Positions 21,484 to 44,863 of a stretch of DNA of 44,863 bases are shown in pieces. The DNA is from a virus, in the IMG/VR virus record IMGVR_UViG_3300047547_000115, positions 1 to 44,863 of that record. One strand, written 5' to 3'. The first letter of the stretch is position 1. Each line of letters starts with the position of its first letter. Both the position numbers and the translations under genes were made by a program. The notes below the pieces were generated by a model that saw nothing but the letters and a program-made list of their open reading frames with translations, was not told where the DNA came from and ran no database searches.

Positions 21484-23595
21484 CTATGCTGCTTGTTGTT
21501 GTCTCAAGGCACCTTGAGGGGTTGGATGTGGCGGAGAAAGATGTTGTGATGGCATTTGACCATTCATGGTCGGGGCAGAAGCTTGACCTTGTGCGGGAGG
21601 ACGCATGGAGGGTTGAGCTTGCGCTTGTGGTTGCATTGCCATTGGTTGGGGCGTACCCAACGGGAAAGCTTCATCTGGGTCCAAACGATCATCCAATCTT
21701 TTAATGGTTTCACGCAAAATGAAATTCGGATTAGCACCAGCGGCAATCAATGTCGGCGCAAGCATTTGAAAGTTCGCGATTTCCAATGCACGATTGGGGC
21801 GACCGGAAGATGAGGCGACAATGTCGAGGTAAAGGTAGTTCAGATAGTCCTCTTTATCCAACTCAGGCCATACAGCACCAGGACCGGCAATACGTATCAC
21901 TTCTGGTTTCTGCATTTCACGTATCAAAATCTCTCCGCCCGCTTGTGCCATTTGACTTAAAAGGTCATCCAGATCATCCACATTGGACGAAGCGGTGACA
22001 ATCCTGGACTGCTCATTGATCGTGGCGGCTGTAGCAGTGGCTTTGTTTGATGCAGCTTGTGGACCTTCCTCTGTCCCTAGCGACAGAAACATATCCTGTG
22101 TCTGTGGTCCAACATCATACGCCATTGGGTCAATTGGCGCAGGACGCATGACAGCGACTACATCATTGATGTTAGTGCCAGGAGGGATGCCCTGTAACTC
22201 CAGCAAACGGTTTGGCTGAGTGGACTCAAGCAAGGATTTATCGTCCTCGGTGAGGAAACCTTTACCGGCTATGTATCGTGGAGCGTTAGCTTTACGTTGT
22301 TCGCGAAGTGCTTCACGGCTGCGGTTCCACTCTTTCTGTGCATGACGGATGAGTCGAACGTCTGACGGAGGAAACACCGTGGCTTTGTTGCCAGATTCGA
22401 CTTCTATGTCGTTAAACGTGAGGGCAAATACCGGCCAGAAACAGTTGATCTGCGGTGCGACAGGTTCTGGCGGTTTGATATAACCTTTATAACCATCAAG
22501 AATAAAAAACGTAGCACCAAGAGACTTGTCAAACACCTCGAAAAGACAGACCCGTTTTTTGGTTGCCTCTGACGCTGGGTCGTCTACCGACAAGGGCATT
22601 CTGGCTTCGGTGTCATCGTATTCGCCACTGGGATAGTATTGCACCAATTCATTCGTATCATCCAGGTCGAGATTGAAAAAAGCATTCACTTCTTCCACGG
22701 TCATCAAATGCTGTTGGGCGATCCATTTTGCACCGACAAAGCCTTTCAAACACGAGCAGGATATGTCGGGGATGATACTTGACGCAGAGGGGAAGTCAAA
22801 GATCAGACGGGTTTGCACTTTCTGCAACTCACCATTTTGCAACGTAGCGGCGATGTTGTTTGACAACATTTTCAAATCTTCCATCTCCGGGTCGGTGTCT
22901 TGTATCTCACCATCATGGACACGGGCGACAATACGTTTGGCGGATTTAAGTTGATCCAGCATATCTCCGCCAACCTCTTGCGAGGACAAAGGAGCGTTTC
23001 CACCACGAGAAAAATTAACCCGAACATACCCCACTCCGCAAGTAACCACTCTCCGAACAAGCTGCTTCATTTGCAGTTTGAACATGAGTTGTTGGTTGTC
23101 ACACTGCCATTTGTAGATAATCTCCAGGGTGCGGCCGATTTTATCCACCATATCCCGATGGGCACGTCCCTGGGCGTAGTCGGTTAAAAGGGCGGTCGCC
23201 GCGAGCTTGACATCAGGGCCCATACCGGGGTCAGCGAGAACCTCTTGAGCGTGAAGCAATGACTCTTGGCGACCATCCCAAATTTGAAAATCCTCACGAC
23301 GGCGGCGTTTGGCAATCGCTTTTGGGTCGCGGGCGTATAGGTGTGATACCTTTTGGTTCACCGAACGAAGGACGAGGTTGACAACATACCGCTGGGACTC
23401 AATAGCTTCCTGTCCTTCCCATTGGATTCCAGCAGCGAAGTTCATGTCATCCCTCATACGTTCGTAGTCTTTCTTCCAATGACTACGGGCGTCACGAATA
23501 CGTTTGGTCCAACGCTTTACCTCCGCCTGAACTGATTCAGGGATTTCGTCAGTAACGGCGGTGTTGCTCGGCAGTATGTTGGTTGAATCGTCCAT
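21484..23595 (-). CDS. Portal protein, 703 aa
   Basis: The large size, the N-terminal WKKDYERMRDDMNFAAGIQW and RYVVNLVLRSVNQKVSHLYARDPKA segments, and the position between terminase and scaffold identify a P22-type portal: a dodecameric ring at one vertex through which DNA enters. The C-terminal ~80 residues are Gln/Pro/Met-rich, as in the barrel extension or a flexible tail. It shares one base with the large terminase stop. Confidence 0.9.
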   Translation of the reverse strand: MDDSTNILPSNTAVTDEIPESVQAEVKRWTKRIRDARSHWKKDYERMRDDMNFAAGIQWEGQEAIESQRYVVNLVLRSVNQKVSHLYARDPKAIAKRRRREDFQIWDGRQESLLHAQEVLADPGMGPDVKLAATALLTDYAQGRAHRDMVDKIGRTLEIIYKWQCDNQQLMFKLQMKQLVRRVVTCGVGYVRVNFSRGGNAPLSSQEVGGDMLDQLKSAKRIVARVHDGEIQDTDPEMEDLKMLSNNIAATLQNGELQKVQTRLIFDFPSASSIIPDISCSCLKGFVGAKWIAQQHLMTVEEVNAFFNLDLDDTNELVQYYPSGEYDDTEARMPLSVDDPASEATKKRVCLFEVFDKSLGATFFILDGYKGYIKPPEPVAPQINCFWPVFALTFNDIEVESGNKATVFPPSDVRLIRHAQKEWNRSREALREQRKANAPRYIAGKGFLTEDDKSLLESTQPNRLLELQGIPPGTNINDVVAVMRPAPIDPMAYDVGPQTQDMFLSLGTEEGPQAASNKATATAATINEQSRIVTASSNVDDLDDLLSQMAQAGGEILIREMQKPEVIRIAGPGAVWPELDKEDYLNYLYLDIVASSSGRPNRALEIANFQMLAPTLIAAGANPNFILRETIKRLDDRLDPDEAFPLGTPQPMAMQPQAQAQPSMRPPAQGQASAPTMNGQMPSQHLSPPHPTPQGALRQQQAA

Positions 23596-25082
23596 TACAA
23601 ATCAGCAAGTTGCATTTCACGACTAAAGCGAGAACGCTTGTCGTGTTGTTTTAACCAACGGAGTGTGAGATCACCAAGAGTGAAGGGCTGGAAGGTCTTT
23701 TGCACTTGTTGCTTGTTGGCGGAAATCATTGTGTCCAAACCCATACCGAGATGTGCTAAAGCGTCAACAAAGTCGTCATGCTTGCCGGAGTCAAATGCAA
23801 GCATTTCAGCCAACGCGGAAGGGAACCAATGAGCAAAGGTGGGCCAGCGGACCATTCCGCATTTCATTCGTGCGCGGATGGACTGAGCACGGGTCCGTTT
23901 ATCCCTTGCGGGGGTTACCTCTTCGACATAGGTATAAACCTGTTCCTCACGCATACGTTTGGTGAGAAACGGACCTATCGACTTCGATATATGGCCTTTC
24001 TCTGCCCACCAGACCTGAGGCCGTCTACGTTTCATCATGGCTAACATTGCTTCGATAGAGTCATCAGTAGCGGCTTGTTTCCAAAAAATGTCAGGTAGAA
24101 TCCATAGGACACCGTTCTCATCCACACCGCCAGGAAGATGACAGGTAAAGTCAGCCTTCTGGTCCAATGACACAGCAAAGTCAGACGCGACATAGTGGAT
24201 AAGGTCGTGTGGAAGTTCTTCAGGACGATAAGCGGCGGATTCAATCCAGTCTTTCTTGAAGAAATCACCGTCCTCAGGATGAGGGTCTTGGTCATACAAC
24301 CCAGCACGATTTGGGTGGTGGCGGATGGTTTCCGCCATGTCCTCGGTGAACCACTCCGGCCAAAGACGTTCGCCGGGGAGACGTCCAAGCGGGTCGTCAG
24401 CCTGAGCGAAGAAGGGGATTTTTATAACCTTCCACTTCTCTGGCTGGGTCGCCATAAGCCAGCCCGCGAGGTCATCCTCATGCCGGCGGTTACAGATAAG
24501 TATTTGTGACGCACCGGGTTTAAGCCGCGGCCAGAAGTCGTTGAGATACCAATCTTTTACCTTCTCGCGGTAGAGGTCTGAATACGCGTCCTCTTCGGTC
24601 CCGATTGGGTCGTCAATCAGGCCCAAATCTGCACGATGTCCGGCAATACCAGCATTCACACCCGCGCAGAAGAAACGGCCGCCGTTGGTAGTCTCCCACT
24701 CTCCAGCGGAACGACTGTCAGCACAGAGGTTGTAACCCAGCTCCTTGTGCTTCATCTGGATGAGGTTACGGGCCTTACGGCTGAATGACTCAATGAGCGT
24801 GTATGAGTAAGAACAGGCAAGAACCGTTGACCCTGGGCGGCGGCCAAGAAAATGCGGCGGGAATAGCAAAGAAGTATAGGTTGATTTAGCTGACCCTGGT
24901 GGTAGCATGATAAGAAGATTGCGTTGCGCACCTTCTTCAATAGCGGTTAGCTCGGTCAGTATCAACCTATGATGAGTGGCTGGTTCAAACCCGCAAGCTC
25001 TTGCCCAGGCGACGAGATCGTGACGTATCTCGCGGCGTTCCGCTAACTTCTTTGCGGCTTCGATGGTTAGTGGTTCGGGCAT
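23595..25082 (-). CDS. terL: Terminase large subunit
   Basis: DNA-packaging motor. The ATPase part has Walker A LPPGSAKST (residues 60-68 from the ATG at 25082) and a Walker B-like LGLIDDP (~153-159). The C-terminal RNase-H-type nuclease has the conserved Asp of ASDFAVS (~D301) and the HDDFVDA segment (~435-441). The frame is open to a GTG at 25100; the ATG is preferred, but neither has a clear ribosome site. Packaging mode cannot be read directly; an apparent circular map is compatible with headful cutting. Confidence 0.95.
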   Translation of the reverse strand: MPEPLTIEAAKKLAERREIRHDLVAWARACGFEPATHHRLILTELTAIEEGAQRNLLIMLPPGSAKSTYTSLLFPPHFLGRRPGSTVLACSYSYTLIESFSRKARNLIQMKHKELGYNLCADSRSAGEWETTNGGRFFCAGVNAGIAGHRADLGLIDDPIGTEEDAYSDLYREKVKDWYLNDFWPRLKPGASQILICNRRHEDDLAGWLMATQPEKWKVIKIPFFAQADDPLGRLPGERLWPEWFTEDMAETIRHHPNRAGLYDQDPHPEDGDFFKKDWIESAAYRPEELPHDLIHYVASDFAVSLDQKADFTCHLPGGVDENGVLWILPDIFWKQAATDDSIEAMLAMMKRRRPQVWWAEKGHISKSIGPFLTKRMREEQVYTYVEEVTPARDKRTRAQSIRARMKCGMVRWPTFAHWFPSALAEMLAFDSGKHDDFVDALAHLGMGLDTMISANKQQVQKTFQPFTLGDLTLRWLKQHDKRSRFSREMQLADL

Positions 25083-25120
25083 ACGATGCGATGGAAGCAC
25101 TTCTGCGGCTATGCCGCCTG

Positions 25121-25669
25121 TTAGTTCCTTGCCTTTCCGTTATCCGCGATGATGGTTGCCAGTTCTTCGTCCGTAAGTTTGTCCAATTCAACCTTGGATG
25201 TATGTGTAATGGGCTGGTTGGGCTTACCGTAGACACGGTCCAGGAGGTCGCAAGCGGCTTTCCGCTGGGTCTCAGGCTGGCATTCTTCTTTGTCGCGAAT
25301 CTCGATCAACTTAAACACGCTGTCCAACGCAGCGGACTGAAGGACTTCGCGGACAGTGTCTCGTCCGGCTTTACGTATTTCCTCCACGATGAGTTGCCTC
25401 GCCCAGGGTTGGCGGCAGATTGCCGCTATCGCGGCGGGGGAGAAACCTAGCTGGTCGCTAATCTCTTTATGTGACATGCCTGACGCCGCCATGAATGCAA
25501 TGGCGCGTTGATGCGGGCGTTCTTTCTTGTTTCGATAATAAGGCGGAGTATGCCCGCCAACCAAATCCCTATCAGCCATTGGGATGGTATCGCCCATATT
25601 TTGGGCATGACCCTTTGGGGTTGTTTCCCGCTTGGTCAAACTATCAACAAACTCTAATACGTTGTCCAT
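25121..25669 (-). CDS. Probable terminase small subunit, 182 aa
   Basis: An N-terminal variable part, then a helix-turn-helix at residues 64-84 (GMSHKEISDQLGFSPAAIAAI), a long helical oligomerisation region, and a short C-terminal tail. Layout and position ahead of the large terminase fit a small terminase that recognises the packaging site. Residues 20-26 (GHAQNMG) are encoded by a copy of the palindromic repeat. First gene of the late unit; its ATG has only a weak AAGAGA site. Confidence 0.7.
   Translation of the reverse strand: MDNVLEFVDSLTKRETTPKGHAQNMGDTIPMADRDLVGGHTPPYYRNKKERPHQRAIAFMAASGMSHKEISDQLGFSPAAIAAICRQPWARQLIVEEIRKAGRDTVREVLQSAALDSVFKLIEIRDKEECQPETQRKAACDLLDRVYGKPNQPITHTSKVELDKLTDEELATIIADNGKARN
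25591..25607. repeat. Palindromic element copy 3 (imperfect, coding)
   Basis: CGCCCATATTTTGGGCA followed by TGACC. It is inside the small-terminase gene near its 5' end, encoding GHAQNMG. Inner arms keep GCCCA / TGGGC. Confidence 0.8.
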
Positions 25670-26323
25670 AGTCTCTTGTCTGTATGTACACCGCCAAGGG
25701 CACGAAAGGATTCAACGGCTGGCGGCGAATCAATTCTTGATCGCACTCGGGCATGGCGGAAAGAACTACTTCCCTTACCTCTCTCTTCTTTTCTCTCTCG
25801 CGCAAATAATCCATATCGCCCATACCTAAGCCTCGCCCTCTTTGGGCGAATTTGCAACATATATTATCTTCTTCTCTGCTCCGCGCTTGAGGGCTTAACC
25901 TGAGCGAAGTTTCCCGTTTGGGGCGGTTTGGTGGAGGGGGGTCCCATCATATATGCACGAGAACGCAGCGAGGGGTGGGCCGGGGGACGGCATTAGACGT
26001 GCTCGTGTGCGTTGTGGACAAGGAAGCCTGCCAGCCTGGAATCTCGATTAAGCCGATAGGGATGGGAGAGAAGGCAAGAATTGCCGACTCAAAACGGGAC
26101 AGCCCCTGCCTAGAAATTGGAAAGGGGAGAGAAGTGTTTGCAAGGCAATGGCTTAGGGGAGAAAAGGAGCAGGGAAGCAGAAAAGCGTGTCCAAAAATAG
26201 GACACCGAGGCCAGCCAGCCAAGGCGGGAAGAGGTTGGCATGGCATTTGCTTTGCGAAGAGGCAGAGCGGAGAAGCATCCGCTTCATCAGCCCCGGATTG
26301 CAGGGGAAAGAAAGGTCATATAT
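25670..26323. promoter_or_regulatory. Divergent control region between late and early units
   Basis: About 650 bases separate the minus-strand terminase genes from the first convincing plus-strand gene, so divergent promoters are expected here. It is purine-rich on the plus strand and has G-runs (25920-25985). A small hairpin TCGCCC / GGGCGA lies at 25833-25849. Weak AT-rich -10-like sites (GATAAT on the minus strand near 25867) have no good -35. Open frames over it look like chance. No RNA gene recognised. Confidence 0.5.
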
Positions 26324-26644
26324 ATGGTTTACAAAAAAGAATCATGGATTGCCTCTTATAAAAAAGCGGTAACAGATACGGCCCAAAAGCCGTCAAGCGG
26401 GATGGTTTGCGCCTTGGCGACATTGCGGGTCATCCGCGATGGCATTTGCGATGATATTGGGCAGAGCGATGAGCAGAGCAAATTATTCTGCGAAGATGTC
26501 CGCGCCAGCATGAACGAACTCATTAAGCAAATCACAAAGGGCGAGACCGTGCATGGTTTCGCCAGCAATGCGAGCGCGGCAGCGAAAGCGGCGGGATTTG
26601 CCGGAGAAGCATCCGCGCTGGAGCAGGCTGGGCTGGATGCCTAG
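26324..26644 (+). CDS. Small early protein, 106 aa
   Basis: The start at ATG 26324 is preferred over the in-frame ATG at 26240 because AGGGGAAAGAAAGG lies just upstream. The protein is soluble and helical (CALATLRVIRDGICDDIGQSDEQSKLFCEDVRASMNELIKQI) with an Ala/Gly-rich C-terminus. No recognised family. First gene of the plus-strand unit that looks real; it ends in an 8-base overlap with the next frame. Confidence 0.6.
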   Translation: MVYKKESWIASYKKAVTDTAQKPSSGMVCALATLRVIRDGICDDIGQSDEQSKLFCEDVRASMNELIKQITKGETVHGFASNASAAAKAAGFAGEASALEQAGLDA

Positions 26645-26849
26645 AGCGTCCCTAGAACACGGCCTGCCAGAATGCCAATGGCTGGCCTTTTCTGTGGATT
26701 CCAAACTAACAAACAAACAAACAGTCAGATTGCTCATCCGCGCATTTTGGCAAGGATATAGGCATCGCGACAAATATGCACAGGACGTTTTTTGGACGGA
26801 ATTGCGCCAAATGCTCCGCAGAGCAGGCTTTAGGAAGGGCAAAGCATGA
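26637..26849 (+). CDS. Small basic protein, 70 aa
   Basis: The ATG at 26637 lies inside the stop region of the previous gene (ATGCCTAG), a coupling geometry. The frame extends 84 bases further upstream but that part lies over the previous gene. The protein is basic and helical (LTNKQTVRLLIRAFWQGYRHRDKYAQDVFWTELRQMLRRAGF). No recognised family. A short DNA-binding or inhibitor protein is possible. Confidence 0.5.
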   Translation: MPRASLEHGLPECQWLAFSVDSKLTNKQTVRLLIRAFWQGYRHRDKYAQDVFWTELRQMLRRAGFRKGKA

Positions 26850-27073
26850 AAAGGGCCATGGCGAGCCTAAGGCCTTGCGGCAATGCGGCTTGGGCGGATT
26901 CTGGCCCTATGGCGAGGCCTTGGGCGGGGGAGCGGCGCATATATGGTACGTACATGGCCCTTGCCATGAGGCCAATGCGTGCGTGCGTGCGTGCGTGGAT
27001 GATATTTACAGCCCCCCCTGCCATAGGCCATATATTATTTGAGCAGCATACCTGTTATAAACCAGCTAAATAG
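26846..27073 (+). CDS. Doubtful small reading frame, 75 aa
   Basis: It begins at an ATGA overlap with the 70-residue gene, but the frame runs through the TGCG microsatellite (encoding RACVRAW) and its composition (Met, Ala, Arg, Pro-rich, no clear fold) looks non-coding. No recognised family. If it is not translated, 26850-27264 is a 415-base non-coding stretch. Confidence 0.2.
   Translation: MKRAMASLRPCGNAAWADSGPMARPWAGERRIYGTYMALAMRPMRACVRAWMIFTAPPAIGHILFEQHTCYKPAK
26976..26997. repeat. TGCG microsatellite
   Basis: Five TGCG units plus TG. It is the inverted partner of the CGCA tract at 27179-27200: about 20 bases can pair across a ~180-base interval. Confidence 0.85.
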
Positions 27074-27264
27074 AGCCAATATTCTAACTTTTAAAAAAAA
27101 AAAAAAATTTTAAACTATATAAAGGGATACCCCCCTGCTCCTCTGAGGCTCTGATATGCCTGGGGGAGGAAAATGAGGCGCACGCACGCACGCACGCACG
27201 AACAATTTATCGCTCCGCCAAGCATGAGCGAGGCATGGTAGGCAACAAACGAAAGGTTGAGGTT
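27074..27264. promoter_or_regulatory. AT-rich segment with A15 tract, possible promoter or origin
   Basis: TTTT-A15-TTTT at 27089-27111 is followed by CTATATAAAGGGATA and a C6 run. A TATAAA at 27118-27123 could be a -10 for the small genes that follow, but a -35 was not seen. The run of A could be an UP element or an unwinding site. A CGCA microsatellite closes the segment. Confidence 0.4.
27179..27200. repeat. CGCA microsatellite (inverted partner)
   Basis: Five CGCA units, the reverse complement of the TGCG tract at 26976-26997. Together they bracket the A15 segment and could form a cruciform or a long hairpin in RNA. Confidence 0.85.
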
Positions 27265-27267
27265 ATG
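27243..27267 (+). promoter_or_regulatory. Duplicated leader with ribosome site, copy 1
   Basis: The 25 bases ending at the ATG of 27265 contain ACAAACGAAAGGTTGAG. They match the bases before the ATG of 27519 except for one G/A change, and GAAAGG is the ribosome site. This match decides the start of both genes. Confidence 0.8.
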
Positions 27268-27471
27268 ATTGGCACAACGGACGAGAGAGAGATGCAGGCA
27301 AAGGCCAACGAGGCATGGGCGAGGTATAATGCCGTCCATGCAAGGTGGATGAATATGGTGGTGGATAGGCACAATCCGTCGTGGATTGCGTTGCAGTGTG
27401 AGTTGAAAACGGCACGGGCAGAATATATTGCAGCCTATCAAGCGTTGCATCCGACGTGGATTATTTTGTAG
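27265..27471 (+). CDS. Small early protein, 68 aa
   Basis: The start at 27265 rather than 27235 is supported by GAAAGG in a leader copied almost base for base ahead of the next gene. A single helical domain with many Ala, Glu and Trp (AKANEAWARYNAVHARWMNM ... ELKTARAEYIAAYQAL). No recognised family. The stop runs into a (GA)8 tract. Confidence 0.6.
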   Translation: MIGTTDEREMQAKANEAWARYNAVHARWMNMVVDRHNPSWIALQCELKTARAEYIAAYQALHPTWIIL

Positions 27472-27486
27472 AGAGAGAGAGAGAGA
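27471..27486 (+). repeat. (GA)8 microsatellite
   Basis: Begins at the last base of a TAG stop and runs 16 bases. A shorter (GA)6 tract at 28511-28522 lies just before another small gene, where it acts as a purine-rich ribosome site. Such tracts change length easily. Confidence 0.75.
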
Positions 27487-27496
27487 AAAACGGAAA

Positions 27497-27521
27497 CAAC
27501 AAACGAAAGGTTGAGATTATG
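27497..27521 (+). promoter_or_regulatory. Duplicated leader with ribosome site, copy 2
   Basis: Second copy of the leader ending at the ATG of 27519, 24 of 25 bases the same as copy 1. The proteins that follow are unrelated, so only the leader was copied. Confidence 0.8.
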
Positions 27522-28508: not shown

Positions 28509-28526
28509 GGGAGAGAGAGAGAAAGT

Positions 28527-36855: not shown

Positions 36856-38322
36856 ATGGAAACCTTGCCCCTTAAAGACATCATTGTCGAAGACCGTTTC
36901 CGTGTTGACTACGGAGACCTCGAATCCCTCAAACAATCCATTTCAGCCTATGGTCTTATCCAACCCATTGTGGTCGACCAAAACAACCGTCTCATTGCAG
37001 GTGGACGTCGTTACATGGCACATCAGCAGTTGGGTTTGCCTACTATCTCGGTCGTCCGACGTGAAACCTTGTCTCAAGACGAACTGTTCGAACTTGAACT
37101 CGAAGAAAACCTTCGCCGCAAAGACATGTCGTGGCAAGAACACTGTCTAGGCGTTGCTAAGATACACGAAATCAAACTACACAACGCTGCACTCAACTCC
37201 ACTTCTTGGAGTGAACGTGCAACAGGTGAACTCCTAGGTGTCGCTAAAGGACAGATATACTACGCCAAATACTTTGCAAAAAAACTTGCGGACAAAGCCT
37301 CTCCTTACTGGCAATGCGAGCAAATGTATGATGCTATACGTCTTAAACTCCGCGAAGAAGAAGACGAAGCCTTGGCGGAGTTAGCCAAACGCCGGATAGA
37401 ACAAGGAACAAAAGCGTTTGTTTCGCAAGCAATAAACTCACTTATTGAAACATCTAGTGTAACGGAACAAACCGCTCCAGAGGATGTGCAAAAACAACAC
37501 GCGAAAGAACGCTACTTATCCAACCCTCATAACAATCCGGATGAGTTCGAGACCTACTACGCTGAACGTCAAGCACAAGATCCAACCGGACCATTGATAG
37601 CTCTATCAAACCGGTTGTTTAACATTAACTGCCTTGACTTCATGAAAGCTAACCCTGCTCGGTTTGACCATATCATAACCGACCCGCCTTATGGTATTGA
37701 CATGGCTATGTTGGATCAAACGAATCTAGGTATAAATAACATAGACACTGTGGCCGAGACTCATGTCGTTAAAGACAATATCGAACTCTTGCATTCCTTT
37801 ATCGCCTTATCATTCACCTCTCTCAAAGACCAAGGTTTTCTAGTCTTTTGGACCGACATGGATCACTGGAACCTTCTATCACAATACGCAACCTCTATTG
37901 GCTTTGCAGTGCAGCGTTGGCCTTTAACCTGGATTAAAACTCACGTTTGTGCTAACAACGCAGCTCAATATAACACCACTAAAACCACTGAAATAGCTAT
38001 GTTGTGTCGTAAACCCGGCACCGTTCTTGCCAAACACACCGGCGCCTCCCACATCATCGCGTCGCATGATGATTACAAAGACCAAATGCAGCATCCTTTT
38101 GTCAAACCGTTCGACGTCTGGTCCTTTATCATTGATGCCGTATCCATTCCAGGTCAACTAATCCTCGAACCCTTTGCTGGTGAAGGTTCTGGTGTGCTTT
38201 CTATTCTACGTAAAGACCGCCACGTTATCGCCTGTGAACTGGATACAAAACACTACAACCGTCTCAATGAAAACGTCCGTGATTACTACCTCCGATTAAA
38301 TTCTAACTGCCGGTTTGTATGA
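36856..38322 (+). CDS. ParB-like domain fused to beta-class DNA methyltransferase, 488 aa
   Basis: Residues 1-100 are a ParB/Srx-type domain: PLKDIIVEDRFRVD, LKQSISAYGLIQPIVV, RLIAGGRRYMAHQQL, ELEENLRRKDMSWQE. After a ~150-residue helical linker comes the methyltransferase: TDPPYG (275-280), then the substrate region, then LEPFAGEGSG (437-446), the SAM-binding motif. Catalytic motif before SAM motif is beta-class order, implying N6-adenine or N4-cytosine methylation. Phages use such enzymes to evade host restriction or mark DNA. Confidence 0.88.
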   Translation: METLPLKDIIVEDRFRVDYGDLESLKQSISAYGLIQPIVVDQNNRLIAGGRRYMAHQQLGLPTISVVRRETLSQDELFELELEENLRRKDMSWQEHCLGVAKIHEIKLHNAALNSTSWSERATGELLGVAKGQIYYAKYFAKKLADKASPYWQCEQMYDAIRLKLREEEDEALAELAKRRIEQGTKAFVSQAINSLIETSSVTEQTAPEDVQKQHAKERYLSNPHNNPDEFETYYAERQAQDPTGPLIALSNRLFNINCLDFMKANPARFDHIITDPPYGIDMAMLDQTNLGINNIDTVAETHVVKDNIELLHSFIALSFTSLKDQGFLVFWTDMDHWNLLSQYATSIGFAVQRWPLTWIKTHVCANNAAQYNTTKTTEIAMLCRKPGTVLAKHTGASHIIASHDDYKDQMQHPFVKPFDVWSFIIDAVSIPGQLILEPFAGEGSGVLSILRKDRHVIACELDTKHYNRLNENVRDYYLRLNSNCRFV

Positions 38323-38495: not shown

Positions 38496-38760
38496 ACAGC
38501 TTGATTTAATCTTATTCGGTCTTATAGCAGACGCACAGCATGACATCGGGCATCATCTGTGTGAACAGGACTACAGCCTTCTGCTCAACACCATGAACCA
38601 ATGCATCCCCGCCATGATTAACAAATTCATTCGCGGTGCAAAGGAACATCCATTGCCGTTGGTTGAAAAAGTCACCCCCGAAGACCTTTTGGCAGAAGCC
38701 TTTGATCAAGTCTTTTACGCTAAAGCACTACAAGAAAGGTTTAACAATGAGCGTCCCTAA
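38488..38760 (+). CDS. Hypothetical protein, 90 aa
   Basis: Helical, with N-terminal LDLILFGLIADAQHDIGHHL and central MINKFIRGAKEHPLPLVEKVTPEDLLAEAF. No recognised family. Its last 14 bases overlap the polymerase gene. Confidence 0.6.
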   Translation: MNKQLDLILFGLIADAQHDIGHHLCEQDYSLLLNTMNQCIPAMINKFIRGAKEHPLPLVEKVTPEDLLAEAFDQVFYAKALQERFNNERP

Positions 38761-41407
38761 CCTCCCGCCCACAGTAACATCCTTTCCTTACCGTATCGCA
38801 TTCATCGGCGAAGCACCAAACAAAGACGACGTCTCTTATGGTAAACCTTTCTCTGGGTTTGGCGGAAGGTTATTCAATCAACTCTTGTCAAAGGCAAACA
38901 TTGTAAACAACGCTTGCTTCTTAGGTTACGTCACCCAAGAACAACCCACGGATAACGATCTAAGTTTATTCGCTTGGACTGGCACTGAGATTCAGTCAGG
39001 AGTCGCCTGTCTCACTACTCAGTTAGCTGAGTTCAAACCTAACCTCATTGTATGTCTTGGTCCCACTTCCTTACACCTTTTCAAAGAAGGGAACGTCGCA
39101 CCGCCAATACGTAAATCCAAAGGTAAATACCGTCACGCTTACCCTAACTCCATTGACTCTTGGCGGGGTTCGTTGTTCACCGCCAGCATGACTTCACCAT
39201 CCCCTGGCACCAAATGCTTGGCGTCATTCAGTCCAAATTTTTGTCTCCGCCAATACTCATGTGTGCCATTACTCCTTTTTGACCTCATCAAAGCCGCCAA
39301 GGAAGGGTTAACCCCGGACATAATCCTACCCCACCGGGATTTAGAAATTGACCTCACCGTGGACGAGATTATACTCGAACTAAATGAAATCCGCACATTC
39401 CGGCGTCCCATATCAGTCGACATAGAAGGTTATGTCAATGCCATGTCCTGCATCGCCATTGCCTCTTCTGAGTCCCACGCATTCTGCATACCCTTTGCTA
39501 AGCTTAATGGCGAATCGTACTGGTCCTCTCCCGATGACGAGATTGCAATCTGGCGTGCCCTGGTGGGTTGTCTCACCGACCCAGCCGTGCCTAAAATATT
39601 TCAGAACGGTCTTTATGATCGTTTTGTTTTACACTACTCCTATGGTATTCCTGTCTTTGGTAACACTGACGATACCATGTTAAAATTCTGGGAAAAATAC
39701 TGCGAACTTGAAAAGTCTCTTGGCTTCCAGTGTTCGATCCTCACTCAAGAACCTTACTATAAACACGAACGTAAAATCGCAGACTCAGACACACATTACC
39801 GCTACTGCTGCCGAGATGCTGCCGTGACGTTTGAAATCAACTCTAAGTTAGAAGCCATACTAACACCCGAGCAAAAGACCCATTACCGTTTCAACATGGA
39901 CCTTTTGAACATTCTGTTATACATGGAACTTCGAGGTATTAAATACGACACAGCACTAGCAAAACAACTCCACGATACCGTTGAACAATGGGTGTATCGT
40001 TACCAAGCCAAGCTAGACACCATCGCGGGCAGAAACATGATTTTGGTTCCTACCGAAACTGACATCGCAAACGCACGTGCAATCATGTGTTATAAACGAA
40101 ACTTGTTTCAACCTAAAAAGGAATTTGAACCTTGCTACTCTCGTGTCATGGCTCTTTTATCGTCCGGCCAAGTTCTTTCTGACCTCGAACAAGGTTATAT
40201 AAACACCACTCTCGGTCTTTCCCTCAACATTAAATCATCCGCCTTCAAAACCTACCTCTATGAAACACTCCAACTTCCCGTCCAAATCGACCCGACCACC
40301 AAAGCCCCAACAACTGACTACGAAGCACTCATCAAAATACAAAAAAAGTCCCCCCACACTGCGGTCGAAACAGCAATTGAACTTGGTTCTTTACGCACGC
40401 GTCATCAAATGCTTGCGATACATGCTGACGATGATGGACGAATACGGTGTGGTTACAACCTCGTCGGCACTGAGACTGGACGGATTACCTGTTACACTTC
40501 TCCAACGGGCAGTGGCTATAATCTGCAAACAATCCCCTCAGACAATCACTTACACAAAACGGACCACCCATTGCACCAAGGAATGCGTGGGTTATTTGTT
40601 TCAGACCCAGGGTACTATATGTGTCAATGCGATCTTTCGGGAGCAGACGGATGGACTGTGGGAGCCTATCTTAAACAACTTGGTGACCCTACGATGTTGG
40701 AAGACCTCTTAGCCAAAATCAAACCCGCCGCGGTGATATGTTACATGCTCCGTCACGGCAATGCTTCGTTGCTTAACAAACCACGGGCGGAAATAAAAGA
40801 ACTCCTCCGCGAAGTTAAATCCGAGGACTGGGACTACTTCGCCTGCAAACAAGGTATCTGGGGAACCTGTTACCTCATGGGACCAAACAAACTAGCCGAC
40901 GTTATTCTCACCCAATCTGAAGGAAAGGTCGCTTTGTCTCCATCTCAAATCCGGGACTTCCAAGCCGCCGTCTTTCAACGATACAACGTTAAACGTTGGC
41001 ACGAATCTATGACCCGCCAGCTATCACAAAAACCAGAGCTTGTCGCCGCTTCCGGTCATCGACGTCGTTTCTATGGACGTTATGACGAAATCCTTGGTCA
41101 AGCTTTAGCACACCTCCCACAAGCAAATACAACCTATGCAACCAACCTTGCCGCCTGGAAACTCTGGAATGATCCAGAGAATTTTAGTAACACTAATTCG
41201 ATATCATCCCGCTTACGTATTGAACCACTACATCAAGTCCATGACGCATTACTCATGCAATGGAAAACCGAAGATACCGAATGGGCTGTTGGTAAAGTTA
41301 AATCCTACTTTGCTAATCCGTTAATAATTGCTGGCCAGCGTATCACCATACCCTTTGAAGGAAAGTACGGAACTTCATGGGGAGAGTTGAATAAAGGAAC
41401 AATTTAA
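38747..41407 (+). CDS. UDG-like domain fused to DNA polymerase I (family A), 886 aa
   Basis: The start at 38747 has AAGAAAGG upstream; the frame is open from 38636. Residues ~14-185 have the uracil-DNA-glycosylase fold: GEAPNKDD (21-28), GKPFSGFGGRL (32-42), LIVCLGPTSLHLF; but the usual HP of the last motif reads SP (SFSPNFCLRQY). Then a DEDDy exonuclease (D225, E227, D291, Y353, D357) and polymerase motif A CDLSGADGW (D629), B KQGIWGTCYLMG (701-712), C VHDA (D833; the common Glu is Ala). No 5'-3' exonuclease. This is the replicative polymerase. Confidence 0.9.
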   Translation: MSVPNLPPTVTSFPYRIAFIGEAPNKDDVSYGKPFSGFGGRLFNQLLSKANIVNNACFLGYVTQEQPTDNDLSLFAWTGTEIQSGVACLTTQLAEFKPNLIVCLGPTSLHLFKEGNVAPPIRKSKGKYRHAYPNSIDSWRGSLFTASMTSPSPGTKCLASFSPNFCLRQYSCVPLLLFDLIKAAKEGLTPDIILPHRDLEIDLTVDEIILELNEIRTFRRPISVDIEGYVNAMSCIAIASSESHAFCIPFAKLNGESYWSSPDDEIAIWRALVGCLTDPAVPKIFQNGLYDRFVLHYSYGIPVFGNTDDTMLKFWEKYCELEKSLGFQCSILTQEPYYKHERKIADSDTHYRYCCRDAAVTFEINSKLEAILTPEQKTHYRFNMDLLNILLYMELRGIKYDTALAKQLHDTVEQWVYRYQAKLDTIAGRNMILVPTETDIANARAIMCYKRNLFQPKKEFEPCYSRVMALLSSGQVLSDLEQGYINTTLGLSLNIKSSAFKTYLYETLQLPVQIDPTTKAPTTDYEALIKIQKKSPHTAVETAIELGSLRTRHQMLAIHADDDGRIRCGYNLVGTETGRITCYTSPTGSGYNLQTIPSDNHLHKTDHPLHQGMRGLFVSDPGYYMCQCDLSGADGWTVGAYLKQLGDPTMLEDLLAKIKPAAVICYMLRHGNASLLNKPRAEIKELLREVKSEDWDYFACKQGIWGTCYLMGPNKLADVILTQSEGKVALSPSQIRDFQAAVFQRYNVKRWHESMTRQLSQKPELVAASGHRRRFYGRYDEILGQALAHLPQANTTYATNLAAWKLWNDPENFSNTNSISSRLRIEPLHQVHDALLMQWKTEDTEWAVGKVKSYFANPLIIAGQRITIPFEGKYGTSWGELNKGTI

Positions 41408-42671: not shown

Positions 42672-44863
42672 GCATAGCAGTCCGGGCTTTATTCTTAGCG
42701 GCGTTCAGGCGAGACTCAAACCTCGCCTGTTTTTGTTGTTGGCTTAGTTTATCCGTATTCTCTTGCATGAACTTCTGGATGGCCAAACTATATTCACGTT
42801 GCATTATCTTACCATACTGTTCTCTCTCCTCATCGGTTAACTGAACATTAGCACCCTGTATTACAATCCTGTCCTCATATCCGGTTAACCTCAGTTTCTT
42901 ATCCGCCAGCCATTTAACCATTTCCTTCGACAACCCAGCGCGAAGTTCTTGTGTCCGATCATACAAAGCTTCCGCAGCTTTACGTGTGGCCATTAACTTA
43001 ACCCTATCATCGTCAGTGCGAACTCGTTCACTCGCATCAACCTTTGCAGCGTTGACACGGTCCTTCCAAGACATCCCTTTCTGTGCATTCAACCTATCCT
43101 TTGCTGTGTCTTTCTTTAAGTCCGTCTTCAATCCAAACGAAGATAAAGTTTGTTTCTGAATCTGTCCAGGGTATTCCTCTCCTTGCACCAAGGCTGAGAT
43201 AGTGTTTGCCGGTATCGGAACAGGTGCTCCTTGTTTCAACGCCTCTTTCACTCTATCCCAGTCATGCAAATGATTCTGCATCCAGTCTTCACCTGTAGCA
43301 AGCACCCAAGCTGATTTACCAAAATTCGACAACTTATACTGATTCACGTCACTCAACGCTGCAAGCACATCTTTCCGTTTATGTGCCCTCTCTACGATCT
43401 GGTGCGTAATCTCCGCCACTAACCCCATAGGGTTCAACCACATTCCTTGTGACTTACCTCCCATGAAATCTGGTATCCAAGCTGAGATTTTCGCCCCTGT
43501 ATAATCATCTTTATTCTCCCACGTGGGTTGTCCCCTTGTTAGATAGTTAATAAACTGATTCGCAACAAAATACGCCAAAGCGATAGTCCCCATGCTTTTG
43601 GTCAATGACCCCGCCAACATACGTTTTTGAAAAGCACTGTCTTTAACATTCTTTGCTGCTTGTCCGAAACCACCAAACTCCGACGCTATTCTACCCATAT
43701 TCCAACTAGGGGCTAGATAAAACAACCTCGCAAGGTCATTAGCCGTGGCTGACTTAATCCACCCCTGTGACATCATATTTCCAAAGAGTGCATTCAAATC
43801 TTTCGACACCTGTCTCCCTACTTCCATATCACTTTTCTGTGGATTCTGTTGTTTAATCCGGTCAAACTCATGACGATAAGTATCCATCATTAACCCACGC
43901 TGAAACTCTTCAAACAACCATTTATTATACCCACCTATACCCGGAATCTTTCTCAACCAATCTGTATGCAGGGCATCACTAAACCTATTAACATTATACC
44001 CTGTCTGTAATGCTATTTGATTAACCCTACGAGCAGCCACCAAATCCGGCAGCATACCCTTTGGCAACTCTCCGCGTGCGTCCATTCGATGCAACGTTGT
44101 ATCATCATTATCCAACAGTAACAACGACTTCCTTGTGCTCTTAAACGCATCCATACCACGTAACGGAGCACTATACAACCACAACCTTATCGGATGATAC
44201 AAGTCAAACATCAACACCGTATGTTTAGCCACCGTCGTTGCCTGCATTATCGCTCTGCCGACCACATCTTTACCAAACAAACTTGTCCCTGTCAAGGCAT
44301 CCAAAAGTCCAACATAACCATTATGAACAGCCACCGGGTGATTCCCGATCATCATTGACTGATACCCTTTTGGTGTCACTGTCACCCCTTGCGTAGTGTC
44401 GAGATTCTTTACCACTGGATTACCTGTCCCAGGATCGGTCATTCCTTTCATGGCACTCACCATATCTGCTCGGTTTGACGCGACCTGTCCAGCCCTTATT
44501 CGATGTTCTAACAAATCAAAAGCATTAAGTGACACATACTTTGTCCCAGCCGCAATACCATCCACTAACGTCTCATGCACCCTTGGCTTAGTATACCCAC
44601 GTCCTCCGCCAGTTCCTGCTGGTGAGTCAAACAACACTGCATTCTCATCACTCACATCCGCCACGTGAGGCACGTAGTTAGGTAGTTTCCTTGTCGGTAT
44701 TTCCCTGCTGTTTTCATGCACTACTTCTTTTTGCATCTCTTGGTCATACCATTTATCCAAGTCACGTAACCTTGGATCACTTAGTGCCAAACGTAACCCT
44801 TGCCGTGCTTCCTCGGCTTGTTTACCACTCACTCCTTTCAATTTATCCAACGAATCAGACATC
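42655..44863 (-). CDS. Giant internal virion protein, C-terminal part
   Basis: This is the continuation of the frame that enters at the window's low end, so it is not a separate gene: the codons before the Met at its edge are the same as those read at 134-150. It supplies about residues 1004-1738 and ends with TAG at 42655-42657. It is helical and charged, with one hydrophobic stretch (around residue 1420, containing ALAYFVAN) and a Lys/Gln-rich, coiled-coil-prone C-terminus. The layout resembles large polyvalent or internal virion proteins of podoviruses that help move DNA through the envelope. Its stop overlaps the 3' end of the convergent plus-strand DUF3987-like gene by 17 bases. Confidence 0.85.
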   Translation of the reverse strand, partial: MSDSLDKLKGVSGKQAEEARQGLRLALSDPRLRDLDKWYDQEMQKEVVHENSREIPTRKLPNYVPHVADVSDENAVLFDSPAGTGGGRGYTKPRVHETLVDGIAAGTKYVSLNAFDLLEHRIRAGQVASNRADMVSAMKGMTDPGTGNPVVKNLDTTQGVTVTPKGYQSMMIGNHPVAVHNGYVGLLDALTGTSLFGKDVVGRAIMQATTVAKHTVLMFDLYHPIRLWLYSAPLRGMDAFKSTRKSLLLLDNDDTTLHRMDARGELPKGMLPDLVAARRVNQIALQTGYNVNRFSDALHTDWLRKIPGIGGYNKWLFEEFQRGLMMDTYRHEFDRIKQQNPQKSDMEVGRQVSKDLNALFGNMMSQGWIKSATANDLARLFYLAPSWNMGRIASEFGGFGQAAKNVKDSAFQKRMLAGSLTKSMGTIALAYFVANQFINYLTRGQPTWENKDDYTGAKISAWIPDFMGGKSQGMWLNPMGLVAEITHQIVERAHKRKDVLAALSDVNQYKLSNFGKSAWVLATGEDWMQNHLHDWDRVKEALKQGAPVPIPANTISALVQGEEYPGQIQKQTLSSFGLKTDLKKDTAKDRLNAQKGMSWKDRVNAAKVDASERVRTDDDRVKLMATRKAAEALYDRTQELRAGLSKEMVKWLADKKLRLTGYEDRIVIQGANVQLTDEEREQYGKIMQREYSLAIQKFMQENTDKLSQQQKQARFESRLNAAKNKARTAMLKTLK
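44730..44863. repeat. Terminal overlap, right copy
   Basis: Second copy of the 134-base overlap; exact over the last 126 bases, with one mismatch 8 bases in. Removing one copy gives a circle of 44,729 bases. Confidence 0.95.

Follow-up and report, generated by a model that had tools for sequence, protein, structure and literature searches.

Cis-acting sites are usually found through the conservation of their sequence. Among phage systems in which a DNA hairpin or palindrome acts as the signal, the concatemer junction of T7 reportedly carries a hairpin, a description ascribed to Chung, Nardone and Hinkle in 1990; a central A-tract and arms of free sequence are, to our knowledge, not known for T7. 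The stem-loop origins of single-stranded DNA phages and rolling-circle replicons contain a conserved sequence for nicking or for primase and mostly come with an HUH Rep, the hairpin promoters of N4 are short and need the virion RNA polymerase, and the telomere-resolution palindrome of N15, on which a protelomerase acts, has no long spacer. Template switching both creates and maintains stems, according to the part of PMC8794818 available to us. The element described here retains its position, its pairing and in many cases a central A-tract, although its arms have exchanged their letters even between phages with 79% identical terminase. No earlier report of it was found among the titles listed for phage inverted repeats, origins and concatemers in the largely open-access literature, and the available part of PMC3276506 holds nothing on it.

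Genome organisation

The stretch of DNA analysed (the window, 44,863 bases) amounts to a nearly complete genome of an uncultured tailed phage. The two ends (1–134 and 44730–44863) overlap by 134 bases at 99% identity, with one mismatch, inside a long late-gene frame, and the assembly is circular. The late genes, including those for the large terminase subunit (TerL), portal and major capsid protein, run leftward from the small terminase subunit gene (TerS) at 25669. Genes for early functions and replication point to the right, starting with orf106 at 26324 but mainly from 27265, and encode among others an exonuclease, a Sak4-like protein, a ParB/methyltransferase fusion, a PolA-family polymerase and a DUF3987 primase. 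The fusion (36856–38322, in the replication region) joins a ParB N-terminal domain to an N6/N4 DNA methyltransferase, and the polymerase (38636–41407) carries a uracil-DNA-glycosylase (UDG)-like domain at its N-terminus; the UDG-PolA polymerase was matched in 13 of 15 related records searched, in six of them as two separate matches. The phage collection searched held no DNA relatives of the right-hand 24,863 bases, and a search with the capsid protein matched only two isolates, at 42% and 34% identity, the nearest being Microcystis phage Mae-Yong1326-1 (42%).

The region between the two gene sets had been singled out in a preliminary description for its odd composition, and this is borne out: at 25.5–27.5 kb the GC content is 0.52–0.54, GC skew is +0.12 to +0.18 and AT skew is positive, whereas most of the genome has a GC content near 0.47 and negative GC skew. 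The accompanying view that it contains few convincing genes holds in part, but the region also includes orf106, a weakly conserved 59-aa frame and the leader of orf68, which extends to 27264 (Table 1). A homologue of orf106 is present in L259 (45% identity over 93 aa, E 2e-11), with no match to orf106 in Pfam. The 59-aa frame is weakly similar (22–36%) to small pre-TerS frames of four relatives, with only L-N invariant. The possible terminator after orf106 is a by-eye call with one mismatch, unlisted by the terminator scan, and the orf68 leader recurs at 27497–27518, before orf67 (27519). Six of seven CATATAT sites on the + strand lie at 25.8–28.8 kb (25858, 25948, 26317, 26938, 27029 and 28739), two of them directly at gene starts (26324 and 28744). 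AG-rich runs precede early genes at 27470–27486 and 28511–28522 and are mirrored at 25778–25800 in the pre-TerS small frame.

Table 1 Features of the element and its surroundings in the window.
Feature	Coordinates	Strand	Remarks
TerL (large terminase subunit)	23595..25100	-	phrog_38, E 1.9e-88
TerS (small terminase subunit)	25121..25669	-	phrog_2538, E 1.8e-4; also by alignment
59-aa frame just before TerS	25644..25823	-	overlaps TerS start
orf106, small early-strand gene left of element	26324..26644	+	AAAGAAAGGT ahead of ATG
Possible terminator after orf106	26661..26692	+	GGCCTGCCA..TGGCTGGCC then TTTTC
Whole dyad, imperfect long inverted repeat	26976..27200		A-tract at centre
Left arm, (TGCG)5.5 microsatellite	26976..26997		100% matching
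C7 run inside left arm	27012..27018	+	
A15 tract	27093..27107	+	TTTT on each side (27089-27111); position 124 of 225
TATATAAAGGGATA then C6, just after A-tract	27116..27135	+	read directly
TATAAA	27118-27123		read directly
Right arm, (CGCA)5.5 microsatellite	27179..27200		100% matching; complementary to left arm
Leader CAACAAACGAAAGGTTGAGGTT and orf68 (27265-27471), first gene right of element	27243..27471	+	

The preliminary description had also noticed an inverted TGCG/CGCA pair around TTTT-A15-TTTT and TATAAA, and the repeats, the A15 and TATAAA are all in place. The element begins 1307 bases from the TerS start codon. Its arms are complementary at 20 of 20 positions with 183 bases between them, and an extended pair of 39-nt arms is 77% complementary; in this extended pairing the first bases of the C7 run pair with GGGGGAGG at 27162–27169. 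The A15 is the only A/T run of at least 9 bases in the window, and TATA/G-run blocks like TATATAAAGGGATA stand beside the A-tract in two relatives (G005 and G011), with a strict consensus absent. An einverted-like scan scored the inverted repeat at 60; its nearest competitor in the genome reached 37, and the highest value among 20 locally shuffled genomes was 42. Under a milder gap penalty the scores were 60 and 42, in an unshuffled comparison. The inverted repeat is more than chance. Folded as DNA, the element reaches -43.9 kcal/mol, as low as none of 60 shuffles (z -5.4).

Distribution of the element among related phages

Related viral contigs were gathered by alignment of portal, TerL and capsid proteins, and the counts below are among the matches listed. 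Members of the resulting clade share 41–55% (TerL), 39–50% (portal) and 49–61% (capsid) identity with the window. Comparison with relatives, which the preliminary description had suggested, revealed a long imperfect inverted repeat of similar position and architecture upstream of TerS in all 21 clade members whose sequence reaches the site. The elements are ~130–370 bp long and lie 1.2–1.9 kb from the TerS match in 16 of the 17 members measured (3.5 kb in G012); the distance is about 2.0 kb in G016 and 3.0 kb in G021. An A/T tract of 9–25 bases is present in 15 of the 21, always near the middle of the dyad (relative position 0.47–0.58 in 15/15) and with its A on the early strand in 13; the elements without a tract of at least 9 bases are those of G001, G004, G007, G012, G014 and G020. 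The element is the top inverted repeat in 11 of 12 contigs that are whole or nearly whole, the exception being G006. For every one of the 21, none of 60 dinucleotide-shuffled versions folds as well as DNA (z -3.4 to -14.2), although these z-scores are descriptive and not a test, because the elements were chosen as inverted repeats or by their A/T tract. The real tests are the whole-contig ranking of inverted repeats, the prediction for G021, the GC-matched comparison and the central position of the tract.

In a TerL tree of 53 author-chosen and author-labelled rows, the clade (98/97) comprises 21 members with the element, five contigs that end too soon and none lacking it; the label 'absent' elsewhere in the tree means absence of an A/T run of at least 12 bases plus judgement. 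Five rows so labelled (L307, L178, L296, L115 and L006) nevertheless have an inverted repeat scoring 47–72 within 5 kb of TerL, and of these L307 (as L101) alone was inspected by eye. Contigs ending at or before the site are L019, L020, L140, L286, L372 and L388. A search of 424 loci (5.81 Mb, counting duplicate contigs) for A/T runs of at least 12 bases gave 29 rows. Each lies upstream of TerS and belongs to a clade member, to L265/L371, whose TerS match equals that of L100 in length and identity, or to L286/G015. All 29 sit at the centre of an element or at a cut contig end, except the A27 of L286/G015.

For an unselected test, from which the window was left out, the 5 kb upstream of TerL were scanned. 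An inverted repeat scoring at least 47 was present in 14 of 17 TerS-bearing loci, as against 3 of 31 GC-matched viral non-members, and an A/T run of at least 12 bases in 9 of 17 as against 0 of 155 non-members. The top-scoring repeat of this stretch in L262 and L375 is not the one with the A-tract, which scores 49. The three misses were L254 (gapped inverted repeat with T13), L270, whose element lies beyond 5 kb and is seen in L023, the same contig, and L105, in which the element is absent. An inverted repeat alone is not diagnostic, because GC-rich non-members have strong ones, scoring up to 105. A prediction was possible for L390/G021, whose TerS match starts 1.3 kb from the contig start, so that the element was expected at the other end: the contig is circular, its ends overlapping by 296 bases, and an inverted repeat scoring 87 with a 9-base tract was found at the predicted place. 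With the same prediction, L370/G022 has ends without overlap and no inverted repeat above 39 in its first 12 kb.

Some neighbouring lineages are without the element. L378/G018 (TerL 49%, circular, just outside the clade) has neither a TerS match nor an element, and the element is likewise absent from L154 and from L105, in which the TerS match is weak (E 3.5e-5). Beside L105 and outside the clade, L286/G015 has an A19 at its cut contig end, and the element may thus extend beyond the clade. A second, longer run (A27) lies at 303–329 of L286, about 280 bases from this A19.

Three of the 21 are weak cases: L289/G014 (inverted repeat scoring 50, without a tract); L254/G006, which was recognised by its T13 and gapped inverted repeat, has hand-set bounds and is not the top inverted repeat of its contig; and L258/G002, in which the element lies at the far end of a contig with non-overlapping ends and its closeness to TerS is deduced from the sister L100. 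Another inverted repeat of the same piece outscores the element in G008 and G017 and ties with it in G013. Similar-looking inverted repeats in L101/L307, L126 and L113 were rejected because of their setting: a late-gene region, a coding sequence, or the vicinity of a TerS-like frame that is itself distant from TerL. The mirrored TGCG pattern gave no match among viral contigs. Single-protein scans yielded 11 distant loci for TerL and none for portal or DNA polymerase, and a scan of genome contigs yielded at least 80 loci, none with an A/T run of at least 12 bases among the matches listed.

Turnover of the arm sequences

The arms differ in sequence from phage to phage. Those of L018 (G001) contain (GTCG), (GT) and (AG) stretches, those of L100 (G005) ACGA/TCGT repeats around T15, and those of L255 and L272 CTAT and GGTC/GGTT, respectively. 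Microsatellites (unit 2–4, at least 12 bases) occur in 6 of 21 elements, on both arms in the window and G001, and are 31 times denser inside elements (10 in 5,076 bases) than elsewhere on the contig pieces that carry them (26 in 404,522 bases). In the closest pair, G005 and G002 (TerL protein 79% identical), the only part of the element that blastn aligns is some 28 bases at the A-tract, against 81% identity over 117 bases and 78% over 64 bases for pieces of the left flank; here the arms have been replaced, with pairing and centre kept. In six member pairs the blastn alignments covered no more than about 30 bases of the elements, in two of them nothing, and they revealed no conserved nick-site sequence. 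Only local matches were used, since global alignment identities of elements are uninformative, shuffled controls scoring alike. In L018 (G001, positions 1–1985), the palindromic CGCATATGCG occurs about six times around the element and is absent from the rest of the piece; it looks like an operator or methylation-site set.

Possible functions

Position, dyad, central tract, distribution over the clade and turnover of the arms are observed directly and mark a genuine element, defined by structure, in one clade of uncultured phages. The claim of the preliminary description that this is a control region is well supported in so far as all 21 clade members reaching the site carry the element, but the early promoter that it proposed is generally disfavoured. 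We consider the element to be a structure-defined, cis-acting DNA hairpin that most likely serves as a replication origin, a reading held tentatively and at a little short of even chances.

That the structure acts as RNA, as a long hairpin transcript (leader, sRNA or RNase III site), or as a transcription insulator heading the early operon, is distinctly unlikely. The element does lie between transcription units, its RNA would fold too, and the A of the tract is mostly on the early strand, but the arm mismatches of 16 elements comprise 33 G-T, 37 A-C and 140 transversions (G006 was taken in reverse orientation for this count and for the fold), and the absence of a G-U excess on either strand is as expected for DNA rather than RNA. 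At the Rfam gathering score there were no matches in the window, and the element-bearing pieces of seven relatives gave two weak tRNA matches only, away from the element. Terminator-like sites stand between the left gene and the element in four of six phages scanned (L098, L021, G002 and L353), in G002 on both sides of it, and a site ahead of the element was unlisted by the scan in the window and L100. Terminator-like totals are near the shuffle mean in relatives (e.g. 4 found, 2.8 expected), and the total of the window (12 found, 3.9 expected) consists partly of the microsatellite arms themselves. In G002, G008, G016 and G005 (L100) the right-hand frame is convergent on the element, which is therefore not in general an early-operon promoter. 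An early promoter or divergent promoter region is accordingly very improbable: TATAAA boxes and a UP-element-like A-tract do stand beside the first main early gene of the window, but sigma-70-like matches are at chance level (3 found, 2.5 expected) and the change in AT skew places the strand switch some 1 kb or further left of the element. A promoter for a phage RNA polymerase (T7-like TATAGGG) was dropped from consideration, as no such polymerase was recognised among the 36 window ORFs scanned with Pfam and the motif is not shared.

The main rival is a hairpin for packaging or at the concatemer junction, which would mark or process the junction of genome copies near TerS; we regard it as rather unlikely. 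The position near TerS suits packaging and an origin equally well, and several ends point towards packaging: the contigs L265, L286 and L266 are cut off at the A/T tract or some 20 bases away from it (the break in L266 being deduced from its offset to L267), and on the circular G001 contig about 320 bases separate the element from the contig end. Direct terminal repeats of 366 bp are described for Mae-Yong1326-1 in the available part of PMC9503304, and its late genes begin near the genome end. However, contig breaks at homopolymers are a common assembly artefact, and the circular contigs of G004, G007 and the window have their ends, which overlap only briefly, at kilobases from the element and thus indicate no physical end there; Mae-Yong1326-1, moreover, is without an A/T run of at least 9 bases in the 6 kb upstream of TerL. 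The element could instead be a mutational by-product, an untranslated spot in which slippage and palindrome-templated repair breed functionless hairpins. Microsatellite arms, fast turnover and the capacity of template switching to create and maintain stems would suit this, as would the further strong inverted repeats near the element in G008, G017, G020 and G021. We nevertheless think it improbable: the element occupies one fixed place, with a central tract, in a clade as divergent as its TerL identities to the window indicate, it is the top inverted repeat of nearly all contigs that are whole or nearly whole, and neutral decay should leave members without it.

The wobble count, the convergent frames and the turnover of arms with kept pairing together suggest a hairpin that acts as DNA. 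Under the replication-origin reading, the arms could fold to a hairpin or cruciform in the supercoiled or single-stranded genome and expose the A-tract, which might then be the loading site for the PolA-family polymerase, the DUF3987 primase/helicase or host proteins. During replication one arm could template the other by template switching, so that the sequence of the arms would be free to change; slippage in a microsatellite on one arm would be copied to the other, keeping the pairing and producing mirrored microsatellites. The GC-skew check proposed for an origin turned out negative: none of 12 contigs shows a switch at the element, mean skew being negative on both sides with only a local positive bump. 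Summed over each contig, the GC skew of the early strand is below zero in 12 of 12 (weakest in G005), though late and early genes oppose each other, and a skew that stays the same across two halves transcribed in opposite directions would be compatible with unidirectional or rolling replication. Iterons shared among members were not found; conspicuous 10-mer repeats around the element are confined to few members, G001 above all, and no 10-mer occurs three or more times near the element of the window. In Pfam scans of 36 distinct window ORFs, no known initiator and no HUH Rep, protelomerase, or single-subunit or virion RNA polymerase was recognised.

A more specific proposal, possible though rather doubtful, is that a replication or packaging start of tailed phages is recognised purely by shape, as a long hairpin tipped by an A-tract, with self-templated repair freeing the letters and mirroring slippage, which would make for a fast-evolving origin that stays functional. 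If the element is functional, origins or packaging sites of uncultured phages could be found by structure. It is also a natural test case for template switching that keeps a DNA hairpin intact.

Comparison with known systems

Like the hairpin of the T7 concatemer junction, the element is an inverted repeat able to form a hairpin, situated towards the terminase end in the genome of a lytic phage, but a phage RNA polymerase is unrecognised here among the window ORFs scanned with Pfam. Like the stem-loop origins of single-stranded DNA phages and rolling-circle replication, it could present a single-strand hairpin to the replication machinery, although neither a conserved nick or primase sequence nor an HUH Rep was recognised. 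With the N4 promoters it would share the use of an extruded DNA hairpin as a recognition signal, but a virion RNA polymerase was likewise not recognised among those ORFs. The N15 telomere-resolution site is also a long palindromic site in a phage genome, whereas the arms here are imperfect and surround a long centre. The closest parallel in behaviour comes from quasipalindromes kept by template switching, whose arms, according to the available part of PMC8794818, stay complementary while their sequence changes, as in the phages compared here; what is described there is a mutation process, whereas the locus upstream of TerS represents a family of elements.
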